Shown here piece by piece: positions 3,290-24,243 of a DNA stretch of 61,568 nt. The DNA comes from Anaeromonas frigoriresistens (GTDB lineage: Bacteria > Bacillota > Clostridia > Tissierellales > SIT17). Below the pieces are notes generated by a model, which saw only the letters and a list, made by a program, of their open reading frames with translations, was not told the DNA's origin and ran no database searches. Position numbers and translations under genes: made by a program. The stretch covers positions 1-61,568 of the forward strand of contig NZ_WSFT01000042.1 in assembly GCF_016820655.1 (NCBI RefSeq). The letters run 5' to 3'. Every line of letters starts with the position of its first letter. Within the stretch, counting starts at the first letter, position 1.

Positions 3290-3703
3290 ATGGTTAATTT
3301 TATTTGTGGAAAAAAAGGTTCAGGAAAAACTAAGAAGCTCATAAGTATGGCTAATGATGATATTAATAATGTTAATGGAGATATCGTATTTATTGAATCA
3401 AAAAAAAGACATACATTAGATTTAAATCATAAAATAAGGTATATTAGTGCCATGGATTTCAATATCAGGAATATTGAGACTTTCCATGGTTTTTTATGTG
3501 GAATTATAGCTGAAGATTATGATATTGAAAAAATCTATATTGATGGACTCTACAAAATAGTCGAATTAGACTTTTACTTACTAGAAAAACTAATAGATGA
3601 TTTAGAGACTATAGAAAAAGATTATAAAATGGAATTTATTATTTCTATGGAATGTTCAGAAGAGGAAGTCCCAAATAAAATGAAAAAATATTTAATGGCA
3701 TAA
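3290..3703 (+). CDS. Small P-loop ATP-binding protein of unknown role
   Basis: A 137-residue protein that starts directly with a Walker A motif (CGKKGSGKTKKL, residues 6-17). It continues with a Walker B-like hydrophobic strand ending in acid (EKIYIDGLYKI). It is much shorter than PilT- or thymidine kinase-type ATPases but has the same start-with-P-loop layout as thymidine kinases. The zinc-binding cysteines of thymidine kinase are missing, so that function is unlikely. ATG start with GGGAGG upstream. It is a single gene closed by a strong terminator. Confidence 0.7.
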   Translation: MVNFICGKKGSGKTKKLISMANDDINNVNGDIVFIESKKRHTLDLNHKIRYISAMDFNIRNIETFHGFLCGIIAEDYDIEKIYIDGLYKIVELDFYLLEKLIDDLETIEKDYKMEFIISMECSEEEVPNKMKKYLMA

Positions 3704-3737
3704 AAAATAAGTCAAGGACTAGTCCTTGACTTATTTT
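3704..3737 (+). terminator. Strong Rho-independent terminator
   Basis: A perfect 17-bp palindrome (3704-3720 with 3721-3737) ends in TTATTTTAAT right after the stop of the P-loop gene. Confidence 0.85.
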
Positions 3738-19867: not shown

Positions 19868-21178
19868 TCATAATGGATTTCCATTTAATTCTTTTGTTAT
19901 TTCTTCCGATTTTTTTAAAGTTTTAAATGCTTTTTCATAATCATTTAATTTGGAGTATATATCACTTAATTTTTTATATGCAAAAGCTAGATGCTTGGAA
20001 TTACCTCTTTTACTCATCATTTCTATTCCTTTATATATAGATTCCAAAGCTTTGTCACTTTCTCCTAAGTTAAATAATATTAAACCTTCATAAACTTTAC
20101 CTGACCACATAAATACATAGTCAAATTTATGATATACTACATCACTATATTTAGTTTTTATTATTTCTTCTAGAGCTTTTTTGTATTCACCCATCTTATA
20201 ATAACAGATTGCTAAGTCAATATAGTATAAATGTTTTAAATGCTTATTTGAGTCTGGAAAAATTTCTAGTGATTTCTTTAGGTATTCTATGGCCTTTTTA
20301 GGTTCATCAATCTCACAATAATAATTTCCATAATTAAAGATAACTTGTGATAACTTAAATTTATTGTCTGTAAACTCGGCAAATTGCATTGCTTTCTCTA
20401 GATAATATAATACATTTCCATAATCCTCCATCACAATGCCTAAATTTCCTCTCATTCTATAAAACTCTCCAGTATTATAATAAACTCCAGATTCTTTTGA
20501 GATTTCTATAGCTTTATCTACTAATTCATAAGTCTCATTCATTCTTCCTAAAGTGGATAAAACTAATGATTTATTAAATAAATACTCTAAGTGAAAAGTT
20601 ATATCCTCAGTTGTAGATTGTAAATAGATTTCATAAGCTTCATCTAATATCTTTAAAGACTTCTCAAAATCTTGAGTCTGCCAAAAAGGGCCCATTAACT
20701 CTATATAGGCTTTGGCAGCGTTTGAATATAAATTGTTTGCTTTGTATATTTCCACAGCTTCTCTAAGACATTTCTCTCCAATTTCAAATTCATTTAAAGG
20801 GAATTTCCATATACCATTTTTATATAAAATATCTGCATATAATTTGCTTTTTTCATTTATATTATAATCTTGTAAAATTCCATCTAAAATTTCCACAACC
20901 TTTTCTTTTTCATACCTTTTAGCATACTCATCAGCTTTTCTCATCTTTCTTTTGATTTCATCTACTGGTATATCTTCATTTAATGTGTCTTCGTCTAAAA
21001 AATAAGAAATGGGCCTTCCTAGTTTATTAGCAAGATATCTTAAATTCTTCATTGAAGGCATAGCATTGTTATTTTCAATTTGACTTAACATGCTTTTAGT
21101 CATCTCTTCTCCAGCTAACTGAGATTGAGTTAATTTCAATTCTTTTCTTAAGGTTTTAATCTTTTCTCCTGTAGTCAT
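19868..21178 (-). CDS. XRE-family regulator with TPR repeats (RRNPP-like peptide receptor)
   Basis: The 436-residue protein has an N-terminal XRE helix-turn-helix (KIKTLRKELKLTQSQLAGEE then MTKSMLSQIENNNAMPS, residues ~6-45, and YLANKLGRPISYFL). The rest, from about residue 75 to the end, is helical with repeated TPR-like units (AIEYLKKSLEIFP, ALEEIIKTKYS, AFAYKKLSDIYSKLNDYEKA). This layout is that of PlcR/Rgg/PrgX-type receptors that bind short peptides and switch promoter activity. It is divergent from four micro-ORFs and an exporter gene. ATG start with GGAGGTT upstream. Its own promoter contains a half-copy of the operator-like repeat, suggesting autoregulation. The peptide-binding role is inference. 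Confidence 0.85.
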   Translation of the reverse strand: MTTGEKIKTLRKELKLTQSQLAGEEMTKSMLSQIENNNAMPSMKNLRYLANKLGRPISYFLDEDTLNEDIPVDEIKRKMRKADEYAKRYEKEKVVEILDGILQDYNINEKSKLYADILYKNGIWKFPLNEFEIGEKCLREAVEIYKANNLYSNAAKAYIELMGPFWQTQDFEKSLKILDEAYEIYLQSTTEDITFHLEYLFNKSLVLSTLGRMNETYELVDKAIEISKESGVYYNTGEFYRMRGNLGIVMEDYGNVLYYLEKAMQFAEFTDNKFKLSQVIFNYGNYYCEIDEPKKAIEYLKKSLEIFPDSNKHLKHLYYIDLAICYYKMGEYKKALEEIIKTKYSDVVYHKFDYVFMWSGKVYEGLILFNLGESDKALESIYKGIEMMSKRGNSKHLAFAYKKLSDIYSKLNDYEKAFKTLKKSEEITKELNGNPL

Positions 21179-21209
21179 AATCTAACCTCCATAATATATT
21201 TCTAATTAT

Positions 21210-21238
21210 AGTATAGTACAAAAAAATTAAACCTGCAA
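21210..21238 (-). promoter_or_regulatory. Promoter of the XRE-TPR regulator
   Basis: On the minus strand: TTGCAG (21233-21238), a 17-bp spacer and TATACT (21210-21215). The spacer contains AAAAATTAAAC read on the plus strand, a half of the repeated element found at 21254 and 21317. Confidence 0.7.
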
Positions 21239-21253
21239 TAGAAAATCAAAAAA

Positions 21254-21271
21254 AGTTAAATAAAATTAAAC
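21254..21271 (+). repeat. Operator-like repeat, upstream copy
   Basis: AGTTAAATAAAATTAAAC, an imperfect palindrome with GTT/AAC ends. It ends 7 bp before the -35 box of the micro-ORF promoter. It is identical to the copy at 21317-21334; the start-to-start distance is 63 bp. Confidence 0.7.
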
Positions 21272-21278
21272 AAAACTG

Positions 21279-21307
21279 TTGACAAAATTAATTCTCAGGA
21301 ATATACT
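21279..21307 (+). promoter_or_regulatory. Promoter of the micro-ORF / exporter operon
   Basis: TTGACA (21279-21284), a 17-bp spacer and TATACT (21302-21307). It is near consensus and flanked by two identical 18-bp repeats. Confidence 0.85.
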
Positions 21308-21316
21308 TATAGTAGA

Positions 21317-21334
21317 AGTTAAATAAAATTAAAC
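21317..21334 (+). repeat. Operator-like repeat, downstream copy
   Basis: A second exact copy of AGTTAAATAAAATTAAAC, starting near the expected transcription start. A protein bound here would block initiation, and cooperation with the upstream copy is possible because they sit about six helical turns apart. Confidence 0.7.
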
Positions 21335-21355
21335 TTAAGTACTGGAGGGAAAGTA

Positions 21356-21454
21356 ATGAAGAAATATAGTAGAAAAGATAATAAAGTTTTAAAAGACAGT
21401 AAAAAGCCTAAAGAAACCCTTGACATAATAATTGATAGAATGATGATTTATTAA
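21356..21454 (+). CDS. Micro-ORF 1, putative signalling peptide precursor (32 aa)
   Basis: ATG with GGAGGG at good spacing. The 32-residue product is strongly basic at the N-terminus (MKKYSRKDNK) and ends LDIIIDRMMIY. It has no classical signal peptide. The N-terminus resembles micro-ORF 4 and the C-terminus resembles the other three. It is the first gene behind the consensus promoter divergent from the XRE-TPR regulator. The role as a regulator ligand is inferred from position and family resemblance among the four peptides. Alternatives are a small regulator of the exporter or a leader peptide. Confidence 0.7.
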   Translation: MKKYSRKDNKVLKDSKKPKETLDIIIDRMMIY

Positions 21455-21473
21455 TAAGAAGCAGAAAATAAGT

Positions 21474-21491
21474 TAAATTAAATTTAATTTA
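21474..21491. repeat. Perfect 18-bp palindrome before micro-ORF 2
   Basis: TAAATTAAATTTAATTTA is a perfect palindrome in the gap between micro-ORFs 1 and 2. Its TTAAAT/ATTTAA core resembles the operator-like repeats, so it may be an extra binding site. Confidence 0.5.
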
Positions 21492-21508
21492 GATCAGGAG
21501 ATTATATT

Positions 21509-21595
21509 ATGATGATCGATAGAAACGACAATGAAGATAAATATAACCTAAAAGATAACGTAGACACAATATTGAACTTATTAAAAGTATATTAG
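21509..21595 (+). CDS. Micro-ORF 2, putative signalling peptide precursor (28 aa)
   Basis: ATG 21509 with CAGGAG 8 bases upstream (a second ATG follows at once). The 28-residue product is hydrophilic at the N-terminus (MMIDRNDNEDKYNLKDN) and ends VDTILNLLKVY. The middle KYNLKDNVDTI aligns with SYNPKNNISII of micro-ORF 3. No signal peptide is visible. It is the second of four peptide genes in a row, each with its own ribosome binding site. Confidence 0.7.
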   Translation: MMIDRNDNEDKYNLKDNVDTILNLLKVY

Positions 21596-21611
21596 TATTT
21601 AAATAAAAGCT

Positions 21612-21627
21612 GAATTAAATTTAATTC
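21612..21627. repeat. Perfect 16-bp palindrome before micro-ORF 3
   Basis: GAATTAAATTTAATTC shares the core ATTAAATTTAAT with the palindrome at 21474-21491 and sits at the matching place before the next micro-ORF. Confidence 0.5.
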
Positions 21628-21648
21628 CATAGAATAGGAGGTTATATA

Positions 21649-21735
21649 ATGAGAGATTATAACAAGTTTATAAAAAGGTCATATAACCCAAAAAATAATA
21701 TTAGCATAATATTAGAAGAGATAAGAATATATTAA
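21649..21735 (+). CDS. Micro-ORF 3, putative signalling peptide precursor (28 aa)
   Basis: ATG 21649 with AGGAGG 7 bases upstream. The 28-residue product begins MRDYNKFIKRSYNPKNN and ends ISIILEEIRIY. The last 11 residues fit a shared pattern: hydrophobic, D/S, x, I, I/L, D/N/E, x, hydrophobic, M/K/R, I/V, Y. No signal peptide. Third of four tandem peptide genes. Confidence 0.7.
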   Translation: MRDYNKFIKRSYNPKNNISIILEEIRIY

Positions 21736-21784
21736 TTTAGTCTTTAACTACAAATAAATGTACTAGGTAAAAGGAGGAATTTCA

Positions 21785-21886
21785 GTGAAAAAGTATAATA
21801 AGAAAGATAATAAAAGAATTAAAGATATTAATAAGGATATTGAAACTATAGATATAAGTCTTATGAAAATAAGAACACATTATTAA
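21785..21886 (+). CDS. Micro-ORF 4, putative signalling peptide precursor (33 aa)
   Basis: GTG 21785 with AAGGAGG 7 bases upstream. The 33-residue product begins MKKYNKKDNKRIKD, nearly the same as micro-ORF 1. It ends IDISLMKIRTHY, which fits the shared C-terminal pattern with one extra residue. Its stop lies 26 bp before the MFS exporter start, so the two are probably on one mRNA. Confidence 0.7.
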   Translation: MKKYNKKDNKRIKDINKDIETIDISLMKIRTHY

Positions 21887-21912
21887 ATAAATTATAATTA
21901 GGAGGGAGATTT

Positions 21913-23241
21913 ATGGAAAATATGAATGAAAAGATTGATGGAAAGGATAATGGAGATCCTAAGGAAAATATAAATATTATATTATACCTGGCAGGGAAAA
22001 TAGTATCTCTGCTGGGTACCCATATATATACCTTTGCAATATCACTATATATATTAAGGACTACTGGTTCCGGACTCTCGTTTGCCCTCAGTGTATTATT
22101 GGGAATGGTACCTAGAGTATTATTGAGTCCAGTAGCAGGATCCTTAGCTGATAAAAGAGATAGAAAGAAAATGGTTGTAGGGTTAGATATATTGAGTGGT
22201 ATTATAGTATTAGGGCTAGTAGTTATATCATCTATTTATGGTTTGAGATTAATATTTATTTATGCTACAACCTTGTTTCTAGCGGTAGTTAATACCTTCT
22301 TTGATGTATCTATAGGAGCAGCTATACCAAACCTAGTTTCTGATAAAAATTTAGTTAAAATTAATTCTTATACCCAAGCTTCTACATCTTTGGCGGCTAT
22401 AATGGGACCTGTTTTAGGAGGTCTAATATATGGATTAGTTCCTATAAAACTTTTCTTAATTATTAATGGCATATCCTTTTTGATATCAGGATTTTCAGAA
22501 TCTTTTATAAACTTTAAATATAATATGAGAGATAGTAAAGAAAAAGAAGAATTAGCTGCAGAACTAGCTACAGAATCACCAATTCAAGTAGATGAAAAAG
22601 GTATTAAAGCTTTATTAAAGGATATCAAGGAAGGTTTAGATTTTATAAAAGAATTAAAACCAATTTATGCTCTTATGAAATTTGCATTATTATACAATCT
22701 TTTAATAAATGCTACCTTAGCTGTTATTATGCCTTTTATAATAAATGATACTTTGAAAATGTCCTCAACTCAATTTGGTGTTATTGAAGGGTCATTTTCT
22801 GTAGGAGTTTTAATAACATCTATAGTTATTGGTAAACTTCCTGAAAGAGAAAAAAATCTTAAAATATTAGTGATAGGAACAGTAATAATGGGATTAATGG
22901 TTGCTTTTATTGGAATACCTGCAATAGGAAGTCTACAAAATTTAAACACGAGCATACACTTCATATACTTTATTTTAGTAATGATAATATTCTCAGCATG
23001 CATGATATTTGTAAATATCCCTATATCAGTTGCCATGCAAAGAATGACTCCCGATAAAATGATGGGAAGAGTAATGGGAACTATGGGAACATTAGCTGGT
23101 GGGATTGCTCCATTAGGAATAATAGTATCAGGTTTACTCTTAGATGTGTTACCACCATTTATTATACCTATAATATCGGGAATTTTAATTATTATAGCAG
23201 CATTAGTTATGAGTAGGGATAAAAATTTAAGAGATTTTTAA
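21913..23241 (+). CDS. MFS family efflux transporter
   Basis: The 442-residue protein has about twelve membrane segments. The MFS signature between segments 2 and 3 reads AGSLADKRDRKKMVVGLDIL, and a second RVMGTMGTLAGGIAP-type loop follows in the C-terminal half. It looks like the macrolide/enterobactin-exporter branch (MFS_3-like). ATG start with GGAGGGAG upstream. It follows four micro-ORFs and is followed after 15 bp by a kinase-like gene. It may export the peptides or a small toxic molecule; the sequence does not decide. Confidence 0.85.
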   Translation: MENMNEKIDGKDNGDPKENINIILYLAGKIVSLLGTHIYTFAISLYILRTTGSGLSFALSVLLGMVPRVLLSPVAGSLADKRDRKKMVVGLDILSGIIVLGLVVISSIYGLRLIFIYATTLFLAVVNTFFDVSIGAAIPNLVSDKNLVKINSYTQASTSLAAIMGPVLGGLIYGLVPIKLFLIINGISFLISGFSESFINFKYNMRDSKEKEELAAELATESPIQVDEKGIKALLKDIKEGLDFIKELKPIYALMKFALLYNLLINATLAVIMPFIINDTLKMSSTQFGVIEGSFSVGVLITSIVIGKLPEREKNLKILVIGTVIMGLMVAFIGIPAIGSLQNLNTSIHFIYFILVMIIFSACMIFVNIPISVAMQRMTPDKMMGRVMGTMGTLAGGIAPLGIIVSGLLLDVLPPFIIPIISGILIIIAALVMSRDKNLRDF

Positions 23242-23256
23242 AAAGAGGTGATATAT

Positions 23257-24243
23257 TTGGATAAAAATATAAGAGAAAAATTTAATGAGGAGATACTTGG
23301 TTTAATTGCAAAAAGGTATGGAGTTTCATTAAAAGAACTAGATAACATAGGGGGCTTTGAGAATTTTGTTTATGAATTTAATAGAAAAGATAAAGATTAT
23401 ATATTAAGAATATCTCATAGTAAAAGAAGAAGTATGAATATGATTGAAGGAGAAGTGGATTGGCTTAATTATTTATATAATAATGGTTTATCTGTTTCTC
23501 CTGCAATATCATCAAAAGAAGGAAATTTTGTTGAGAGAGTTCAAAGTAAGGATGTGGATTTTCTAGGTGTAGTATTTGAGAAAGCTGAAGGCAGACATGT
23601 GGAATATAAGGATTTAAAGCCTGAAATATTCATTGAATGGGGTAAAGTAATAGGAAAAATTCACAGATTAACAAAATATTATATACCAAAAAAATCAGAC
23701 ATTAAAAGATTCAATTGGCTAGATGATTATAGAGAAGTAGAGAGTTATATACCTAAGAATCAACCTATTATAAAAGAAAAATATAGAAATATAGTAAAAT
23801 ATATAAATGAACTTCCCAAAGATAGAGATAGCTATGGTCTTATTCATACGGATGCTCATAGTGGGAATTTCTTTGTCAAGGATAATAAAATCACACTTTT
23901 TGATTTTGATGACTCCTGTTATAAATGGTTTATAAGTGATATAGCTATACCATTATTCTATTATGGAATGTATGAAAATGTTGGCTTTGATAATATTGAA
24001 AAATCAAAGGAATTTATACATTATTTCTTAGAAGGGTATGACAAGGAAAATAACTTAGACAGTAAATGGTTGAAAGAAATTCCTGTATTTTTAAAGCTTC
24101 GAGAAATTGTACTCTACTCTGTAATATATAGGAGCTTAGATGTGAATAATTTACAGGGATCAGCTAAGAGATTTATGGATAAGAGAAGTGAAAGAATAGA
24201 AAATGATATACGGTTTTTAAATATAGATTTTACAAAAATATAG
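23257..24243 (+). CDS. APH-fold phosphotransferase (aminoglycoside/homoserine kinase-like)
   Basis: The 328-residue protein has the catalytic loop YGLIHTDAHSGNFFV (HxDxxxxN, catalytic Asp in HTDAH) and the metal-binding LFDFDD (DFD) of the APH/choline kinase fold. The N-lobe carries the NFVYEF and YILRIS elements. The substrate is unknown; family members phosphorylate antibiotics, homoserine, choline or other small alcohols. The start is TTG 23257, chosen because AGAGGTG lies just upstream; a GTG nine bases earlier is an alternative. It is the last gene of the micro-ORF/MFS unit. Confidence 0.82.
   Translation: MDKNIREKFNEEILGLIAKRYGVSLKELDNIGGFENFVYEFNRKDKDYILRISHSKRRSMNMIEGEVDWLNYLYNNGLSVSPAISSKEGNFVERVQSKDVDFLGVVFEKAEGRHVEYKDLKPEIFIEWGKVIGKIHRLTKYYIPKKSDIKRFNWLDDYREVESYIPKNQPIIKEKYRNIVKYINELPKDRDSYGLIHTDAHSGNFFVKDNKITLFDFDDSCYKWFISDIAIPLFYYGMYENVGFDNIEKSKEFIHYFLEGYDKENNLDSKWLKEIPVFLKLREIVLYSVIYRSLDVNNLQGSAKRFMDKRSERIENDIRFLNIDFTKI

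Follow-up and report, generated by a model that had tools for sequence, protein, structure and literature searches.

The 61,568-nucleotide stretch analyzed here (henceforth the window) is the entire 61.6-kb contig NZ_WSFT01000042.1 of the 3.23-Mb, 53-contig genome of Anaeromonas frigoriresistens (G000). On its forward strand it carries four tandem, paralogous micro open reading frames (micro-ORFs) of 32, 28, 28 and 33 codons, in the gap between a divergently oriented XRE-TPR regulator gene and a gene for an exporter of the major facilitator superfamily (MFS). These frames bear signs of coding constraint, lie behind two copies of a palindromic operator and face a regulator of the receptor type found in RRNPP systems. 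We tentatively propose, as a reading that we hold to be plausible yet somewhat short of probable, that the encoded micropeptides serve as intracellular feedback ligands of this regulator, itself probably the repressor of the operon. The core features are as follows (G001 and G003 being two further genomes of the genus):

19868..21178, reverse strand: XRE-TPR regulator, 436 amino acids; Pfam HTH_19/HTH_3 and TPR_12, with profile hits to ComR and PlcR
21255..21271, unstranded: operator O1 (GTTAAATAAAATTAAAC), 14/14 match to the pattern GTTWAATNNNATTWAAC, just 5' of the -35 element
21279..21307, forward strand: promoter TTGACA-17-TATACT, 11/12 match, between O1 and O2
21318..21334, unstranded: operator O2 (GTTAAATAAAATTAAAC), exact match, between the -10 element and ORF1
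21356..21454, forward strand: micro-ORF 1 (MKKYSRKDNKVLKDSKKPKETLDIIIDRMMIY), 32 amino acids, dN/dS 0.11 against ORF4
21509..21595, forward strand: micro-ORF 2 (MMIDRNDNEDKYNLKDNVDTILNLLKVY), 28 amino acids, cassette DNA homologous to that of ORF3 and of G001/G003
21649..21735, forward strand: micro-ORF 3 (MRDYNKFIKRSYNPKNNISIILEEIRIY), 28 amino acids; with ORF2, the nearest to the single G001/G003 orthologue
21785..21886, forward strand: micro-ORF 4 (MKKYNKKDNKRIKDINKDIETIDISLMKIRTHY), 33 amino acids, GTG start
21913..23241, forward strand: MFS exporter; nearest NCBIfam model TIGR00900 (H+ antiporter), below cut-off

Each micro-ORF is preceded by a ribosome-binding site of the GGAG/GAGG type, and all four encode tyrosine as the last residue. 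Among 5000 first-order Markov versions of the 734-bp gap, 78 contained at least one frame of 25-40 codons whose start lies 3-11 bases downstream of a GGAG or GAGG and none contained two or more, against the four observed. The same search across the whole window recovered eight frames on the forward strand, namely the four micro-ORFs and four others (none ending in tyrosine), and three on the reverse strand. Thus, the four micro-ORFs with their own ribosome-binding sites are confirmed where a prior model-made interpretation of the bare letters (the sequence-only reading) had placed them, and the divergent regulator and downstream exporter are likewise as it described. The common C-terminal pattern and the paralogy that it had noted are also borne out, by a six-row protein alignment and by homology of the surrounding DNA, the pattern being traceable to the paralogy.

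To judge from their sequences, the micro-ORFs are paralogues that were duplicated as a cassette of operator-like site, ribosome-binding site and ORF, because the cassettes of ORF2, ORF3, G001 and G003 can be aligned from the upstream operator-like site through the ribosome-binding site and ORF to the stop codon. The DNA alignment scores of ORF2 and ORF3 with each other and with G001/G003 range from 56 to 88, as against shuffle means of 23-26 (standard deviation about 4). ORF1 and ORF4 are mutually closest at the protein level; at the DNA level none of 300 shuffles reaches the score of ORF1 against the G003 cassette, and 6 of 300 reach that of ORF4 against ORF1. Further downstream operator-like copies accompany the micro-ORF cassettes in all three genomes, and in the window they comprise:

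21472..21488, unstranded: operator-like site before ORF2, 13/14, part of the duplicated cassette
21609..21625, unstranded: degenerate operator-like site before ORF3, 11/14, recognized by cassette homology

Among the window's four ORFs the proportion of synonymous differences (pS) is 0.5-0.8. For ORF1 and ORF4 it is 0.74, against a nonsynonymous proportion (pN) of 0.28, giving a ratio of nonsynonymous to synonymous divergence (dN/dS) of 0.11; the remaining pairs within the window or between it and its congeners have values of 0.32-0.62 where the ratio is defined, with the exception of ORF3 paired with G003 and with G001. Over ten micro-ORF pairs, which are non-independent, codon positions 1, 2 and 3 hold 91, 97 and 135 differences, respectively. 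In neutral simulations, which assume a star phylogeny with substitutions only, all four frames were kept in a fraction of 0.0048 of the runs at 75% identity, 0.0009 at 69% and 0.00015 at 60-64%, the real pairs being ~52-71% identical. We regard these patterns as real but not overwhelming evidence that the micropeptides are translated and under selection.

Within the genus, sampled by four genomes (G000 to G003), both G001 and G003 possess the regulator (63% identical to that of the window), one micro-ORF (MKIYVMNND[YH]KY[SN]PKDNKDIILEMLRIY) and the MFS gene in the same arrangement, with different flanking genes. Hence, two of the three other genomes keep regulator and exporter, each with one micro-ORF orthologue. 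In G002 (locus L063, 98-2291) the MFS gene directly follows a nitroreductase gene, the same one that flanks the window's regulator; this genome lacks a close regulator (best E 1.8e-7), and neither a micro-ORF nor an operator (best 10/14) was found in the gap. A profile of the six peptides recovered 4, 1 and 1 copies in G000, G001 and G003 and no match in the other 246 of the 249 genomes of the order (E <= 0.005). An extension of the family beyond the genus was rejected, as there were only weak matches, in 60 genomes at E <= 5, the best outside the genus having an E-value of 0.0126.

The regulator has the architecture of RRNPP receptors, i.e. a protein of 250-500 residues with an N-terminal helix-turn-helix (HTH) domain (HTH_19/HTH_3 at residues 4-61) and C-terminal TPR repeats, with matches up to residue 429. 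Its sequence profile is related to characterized RRNPP receptors over both the HTH and TPR regions: searches of the PDB sequences recovered 5jub, titled 'Transcriptional regulator' and presumably ComR (E 9.8e-14), PlcR (2qfc, E 1.2e-13, residues 3-276), ComR (6hu8, E 1.3e-12, residues 2-275) and Rap105 (8rte, E 7.7e-11). An AlphaFold2 model built from a 22-sequence alignment has a mean pLDDT (predicted local distance difference test) of 92.6, and a fold search with it matched Rap (4gyo, Z 24.3), NprR (5dbk, Z 22.8) and also PlcR. The list of 12 NCBIfam families obtained for it at E <= 0.001 does not include the Rgg-type model TIGR01716, the presence of that model in the library being unconfirmed. 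The profile hits to PlcR and ComR together with the compatible fold support the prior assignment of the regulator as RRNPP-like.

The promoter described as near-consensus does match at 11 of 12 positions, but promoter-like sites in the scan (8) do not exceed those in shuffles (7.3 +/- 2.8); its support is therefore its placement between two conserved operators. In G001, G003 and G011, visual inspection likewise places similar promoters between the operators. With O1 just before the -35 element and O2 just after the -10 element, the arrangement suggests repression, as transcription would be expected to start within O2. Exact copies of the palindrome number three in the window's genome, all of them at this locus and one inside the regulator gene; at one mismatch or less the palindrome occurs at 18 places (4 here and 14 elsewhere, as against 10 for a reversed-pattern control), and no second close pair was found elsewhere in that genome at this threshold. 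Since the exact sites are confined to this locus and no other close pair occurs genome-wide, this operon would seem to be the target of the regulator. In G001 and G003 the exact pattern yields no site at all, missing even their own operators (13/14), and is uninformative regarding their other targets. Two additional sites lie on the regulator's side:

21216..21232, unstranded: weak operator-like site, 11/14, near the regulator's own start, where autoregulation of the regulator gene is possible
20069..20085, unstranded: exact operator match within the regulator gene, one of the three exact sites genome-wide, which could be a roadblock or a chance occurrence

To place the locus in an evolutionary context, regulator relatives were collected from a scan of named genomes, a sample of the class (10 of 391 genomes, E <= 1e-40), the family of genome G376 (8 of 22) and a sample of the phylum (3 of 378 genomes at E <= 1e-60, including the window's own), with the class and family searches overlapping in genomes. 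The resulting census comprises 27 distinct regulator loci after removal of repeats (L074 and L075, equivalent to G011 and G041; L167, L168 and L170, equivalent to L076, L080 and L086 by identical N-termini) and after dropping a sister clade (L067, L088 and L176-L181), L090 and short HTH-region hits (L092-L134). The census loci are non-independent, L082/L083 and L076/L080 being close relatives, and further low-scoring matches lie outside the census. Frames on the regulator's strand were excluded from the micro-ORF count, and a 27-residue frame in L167 (= L076) and a 19-residue frame in L174, overlapping the exporter start by more than 20 bases, were not counted.

In 23 of the 27 loci the first gene of at least 150 codons encodes a protein related to the window's MFS exporter (29-100% identity, E <= 2e-57). 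The remainder have an alpha/beta-hydrolase gene (Abhydrolase_1; G020/L066), an ABC-transporter-like gene named from its sequence (L173), micro-ORFs followed by a response-regulator gene (L091) or a contig end (L172). In 24 of the 27 gaps GTTWAATNNNATTWAAC occurs two or more times (12 or more of the 14 fixed letters matching), something seen in no more than 4 of 200 Markov gaps whatever the locus; L077, L084 and L091 have a single copy. The spacing of the copies in these 24 loci is 60-64 bp in 18 and 54-55 bp in four (L087 and L089, both of Paenibacillus, L182 and L183), with L172 and L173 showing other spacings. The 17-bp palindromic operator pair marks an XRE-TPR/exporter switch from Clostridia to Paenibacillus, and the exporter appears to be under control of the regulator. 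Micro-ORFs with a ribosome-binding site occur in just 4 of the 27 loci, i.e. those of the three congeners and L091. These phyletic patterns indicate that the regulator-exporter pair is older than the micro-ORFs, which are an add-on that arose more than once. The refutation test posed in the sequence-only reading, under which relatives with regulator and exporter should retain the micro-ORFs, had a divided outcome: a micro-ORF is present in both congeners with the two genes, but in none of the 20 MFS pairs outside the genus. A mobile origin was considered and rejected, as searches of plasmids (E <= 1e-20) and phages (E <= 1e-10) gave no hit to the regulator; regulator relatives were present on three viral contigs, with the match confined to the HTH region.

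The micro-ORFs at L091 belong to Oceanirhabdus seepicola (3423-3724, reverse strand), where two tandem paralogous frames of 44 and 45 residues face a member of the regulator clade in a locus with no exporter. They are the first cistrons, and share a common middle region with differing C-termini, HIIRIYGM and ILFLINRSLM, the first of which recalls the IRIY/LRIY ends in the window's genus. Over 24 codons the pair differs by 3, 1 and 9 changes at codon positions 1, 2 and 3 (13 in total), with two amino acid changes. A FastTree tree places L091 together with L077 and L174, within the MFS-linked clade and apart from the window's genus, whose tree neighbor is G011, a locus devoid of a micro-ORF. The profile of the window's family did not match the L091 ORFs (fetched loci, limit E 20). 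The motif [ILMV][RK][IV]Y within the last 10 residues occurs in 41 of 6144 ORFs of 25-60 residues in the fetched loci, of which 22 are copies of the genus family and one is from L091; this motif was picked after viewing the data and is suggestive only.

In the same tree, under midpoint rooting, the MFS-linked clade splits from the sister clade with a support of 1.0. Six of the eight sister-clade regulators (L067 and L176-L180, but not L181 and L088) adjoin a small ORF with a hydrophobic, signal-like N-terminus, as judged by eye, that of L176 being 135 residues long. These neighbors speak for a peptide-binding regulator more strongly than the TPR fold does. The small ORFs of L177, L178 and L179 contain a repeated segment, L177 holding SASVEFPDGPDS twice, a feature known from multi-pheromone propeptides, and are likely to be secreted propeptides of this kind. 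The repeats, with coordinates given after turning the regulator to the reverse strand, are ASVEFPDGPDS x2 in L177 (2995-3174), ADFEYPPYK x2 in L178 (2921-3151) and LAYIELPGPIVDG x2 in L179 (2989-3273). No operator site of at least 12/14 was found in L176-L181.

Downstream, the window's MFS protein shows distant similarity to Mef macrolide pumps, all below curated cut-offs, and its gene is followed by a third cistron:

23248..24243, forward strand: APH-fold kinase (APH/choline kinase superfamily)

In G001 and G003 the MFS gene has no such neighbor, and the kinase is therefore regarded as accessory and outside the core. The window's genome also has three SBP_bac_5 matches over the cut-off, a family found as well in 11 of 14 control genomes.

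From these observations we infer repression, binding of the peptides by the regulator and feedback, the last with either sign, along the following lines. The RRNPP-like regulator, probably a repressor, would act locally on one promoter via two palindromic operators about six helical turns apart, its usual output being the MFS exporter. In one genus a coding cassette of operator-like site, ribosome-binding site and ORF of 28-33 codons would have come to head the operon as its first cistron, with amplification to four diverged copies in the lineage of the window. Firing of the promoter would yield micropeptides that are not exported, and whose hydrophobic, tyrosine-ended C-termini might bind in the TPR groove, shifting the regulator and stabilizing its on (or off) state in a feedback resembling that of ComS on ComR in Streptococcus mutans. 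The four diverged copies could then constitute a graded or combinatorial set of ligands. If the peptides do bind the regulator, an exporter switch already in place would have gained peptide feedback that works within the cell, and not as quorum sensing, and the ligands would subsequently have multiplied to four different ones, in a lineage in which regulators of the sister clade seem to rely on secreted pheromones. The loci with 0, 1, 2 or 4 micro-ORFs would then allow a direct test of how peptide signaling arises from, or turns into, intracellular control. In addition, the conserved pair of 17-bp operators provides a handle on an exporter switch common to Clostridia and Paenibacillus. A more elaborate version, which we consider decidedly improbable, is a private intracellular code in which four non-exported ligands of the operon's own TPR regulator possibly mimic the N-terminal tail of the exporter, such that the regulator reads its own output, with a like arrangement arising independently in Oceanirhabdus.

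Several observations weigh against feedback by peptide ligands. Constraint is absent from some micro-ORF comparisons: ORF3 has a dN/dS of 1.5 against G003 and 1.1 against G001, and the G001 and G003 micro-ORFs are separated by two nonsynonymous differences and no synonymous one. Identity is 0.39 in the C-terminal half and 0.36 in the N-terminal half (0.43 in the last 11 columns), only a slight difference, whereas a marked one would be expected of a mature signal at the C-terminus. Micro-ORFs are absent from 20 of the 23 regulator-MFS pairs, and L091 has only one operator at 13/14 plus one at 11. The top PDB sequence match to the regulator is a designed TPR protein (E 9.7e-17), and the best fold match is LGN (4wnd, Z 25.2), tied with Rap; TPR similarity alone hence does not single out RRNPP proteins, and the TPR fold by itself does not prove peptide binding. 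Finally, 42 TPR positions (21 in A helices) are conserved across 16 regulators, 3 with and 13 without micro-ORFs, making it likely that there is an additional clade-wide ligand, perhaps the exported drug. TPR helix 4A shows E196 to H and I197 to L changes in the three micro-ORF congeners, residue 196 being E in 18, H in 3 and K in 1 of 22 aligned rows, with L091 retaining E; as this switch is confined to a single lineage it provides no test and was rejected as a marker of micro-ORFs. On balance, the part of the sequence-only reading that stands is that the ORFs are real, paralogous and under coding constraint and face an RRNPP-like regulator, but the 20 pairs without ORFs and the conservation of the TPR positions regardless of them count against their being its ligands.

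Given the position of the micro-ORFs as first cistrons before a distantly Mef-like exporter and an APH-fold kinase, they might instead be leader cistrons, whose translation sets ribosome traffic or senses ribosome-targeting drugs in the Mef/Msr or Erm manner, the peptide being irrelevant in trans. A leader peptide upstream of mef is indeed known (PMC4335068). However, the region 21150-21950 has no terminator-like site, the transcript 21308-21930 is no more stably folded than 20 shuffled versions (z 0.06), four-fold repeated ORFs of 28-33 codons are unlike the 8-residue MefL, and most comparisons show constraint at the protein level; we consider this explanation unlikely. A structured RNA leader in particular was rejected for lack of terminator-like sites and on the fold z-score, and the single sub-threshold match to an RNA family (SIB_RNA, E 0.42) is taken as chance. 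Operon-encoded small transporter subunits such as AcrZ, KdpF and SgrT offer another precedent, under which the micropeptides, whose genes adjoin the MFS gene, would associate with the MFS protein, or with its N-terminal region, and modulate the assembly or activity of the transporter. The N-terminus of the window's MFS protein (..DPKENINIILYL..) resembles ORF1, ORF2 and ORF3 (1, 14 and 3 of 1000 shuffles reach the score), and the DNA of its 5' end resembles ORF1 and ORF4 (1 and 0 of 300 shuffles). Yet, many comparisons were made, ORF4 (349/1000) and the G003 micropeptide against its own MFS protein (627/1000) show no such protein resemblance, ORF3 shows none at the DNA level (251/300), an unrelated control (the G001 cassette against the regulator 5' end) also gives 0/300, the micropeptide profile matches the window's MFS protein at an E-value of just 1.5, and L091 has micro-ORFs without an MFS gene. 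A transporter subunit is thus quite improbable, and a derivation of the micro-ORFs from the 5' end of the exporter gene, seen for the window's own MFS gene alone, not reproduced in G003 and weak by profile, is only suggestive.

A further alternative is that the micro-ORFs are decaying by-products, i.e. non-functional partial duplications of the operator and the 5' end of the exporter gene. The cassette structure, the variable copy number (0, 1 or 4), the absence from 20 of the 23 MFS pairs, the possibly MFS-derived sequence and the nonsynonymous nature of both G001-G003 differences would fit such decay. It is disfavored by the retention of the frames: reading frame, ribosome-binding site and final tyrosine are kept in all six ORFs despite the pS of 0.5-0.8 among the window's four, the neutral simulation gives at most 0.0009 at 60-69% identity, and ORF1/ORF4 has a dN/dS of 0.11. 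We therefore find decay very doubtful. Four tandem small ORFs preceding an exporter, in a genome that encodes oligopeptide-binding proteins for import, also recall sets of exported peptides, with the MFS protein exporting them as pheromones or as a multi-peptide leaderless bacteriocin comparable to aureocin A70. Against this, no Sec-type hydrophobic export segment was found in the five genus peptides scored by 15-residue hydropathy, for which the best values range from -0.38 to 0.33; the genus micropeptides are strongly hydrophilic (charge -2 to +5), 20 of the 23 pairs have the exporter without peptides, and small molecules are the usual substrates of MFS proteins of this type. The missing hydrophobic segment in particular disfavors export, which we rate as highly improbable. 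Of all these readings, intracellular feedback on the regulator is the most economical.

A small ORF upstream of a Mef-type MFS gene is reminiscent of mef/msr(D) attenuation, in which the 8-residue MefL acts with stem-loops and a terminator (PMC4335068); these stem-loops and the terminator were not seen at the window's locus. With the sister clade (L067 and L176-L180) it shares a homologous regulator faced by a small ORF, which there has a hydrophobic N-terminal stretch, unlike the window's micro-ORFs. The RRNPP signature as set out in PMC10075063 admits SHP and PrgQ as exceptions to Sec export, and its adjacent gene of 10-100 residues with a ribosome-binding site is present four times in the window and in 4 of the 27 homologous loci. 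Several similar propeptides at one locus are described for RRNPP(A) 'chatterers', as are receptors without any, with the Rap cases called different having mature peptides that differ at one position (PMC9765709), and multiple pheromones within one propeptide are treated in PMC11343458. The likeness to the 'chatterers' lies in the presence of multiple similar small peptide genes next to a single TPR receptor, and the difference in the lack of a Sec-like segment and the far greater divergence of the paralogues here.

Thus, every single element has a precedent. The claim that the system is unusual and undescribed is weakened by the non-Sec peptides (SHP, PrgQ) and multiple propeptides already on record; as to their combination, in the open-access literature searched we found no description of tandem, apparently non-secreted, operator-linked peptide genes on an exporter switch, nor of an exporter switch with a 17-bp operator pair. 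The likeness to ComR-ComS consists of a cytosolic HTH-TPR regulator with a small peptide gene; ComR is among the PDB profile hits, and ComS is likewise without a Sec signal. In S. mutans ComS acts via ComR inside the cell, with processing, export and import being unneeded (PMC6211226). The differences are that there is one ComS as opposed to four peptides here, and that the present operon includes an exporter gene under a probable repressor. Setting the locus apart from canonical RRNPP quorum-sensing pairs, because their export-signal feature is lacking, we tentatively group it with systems that work like ComRS.

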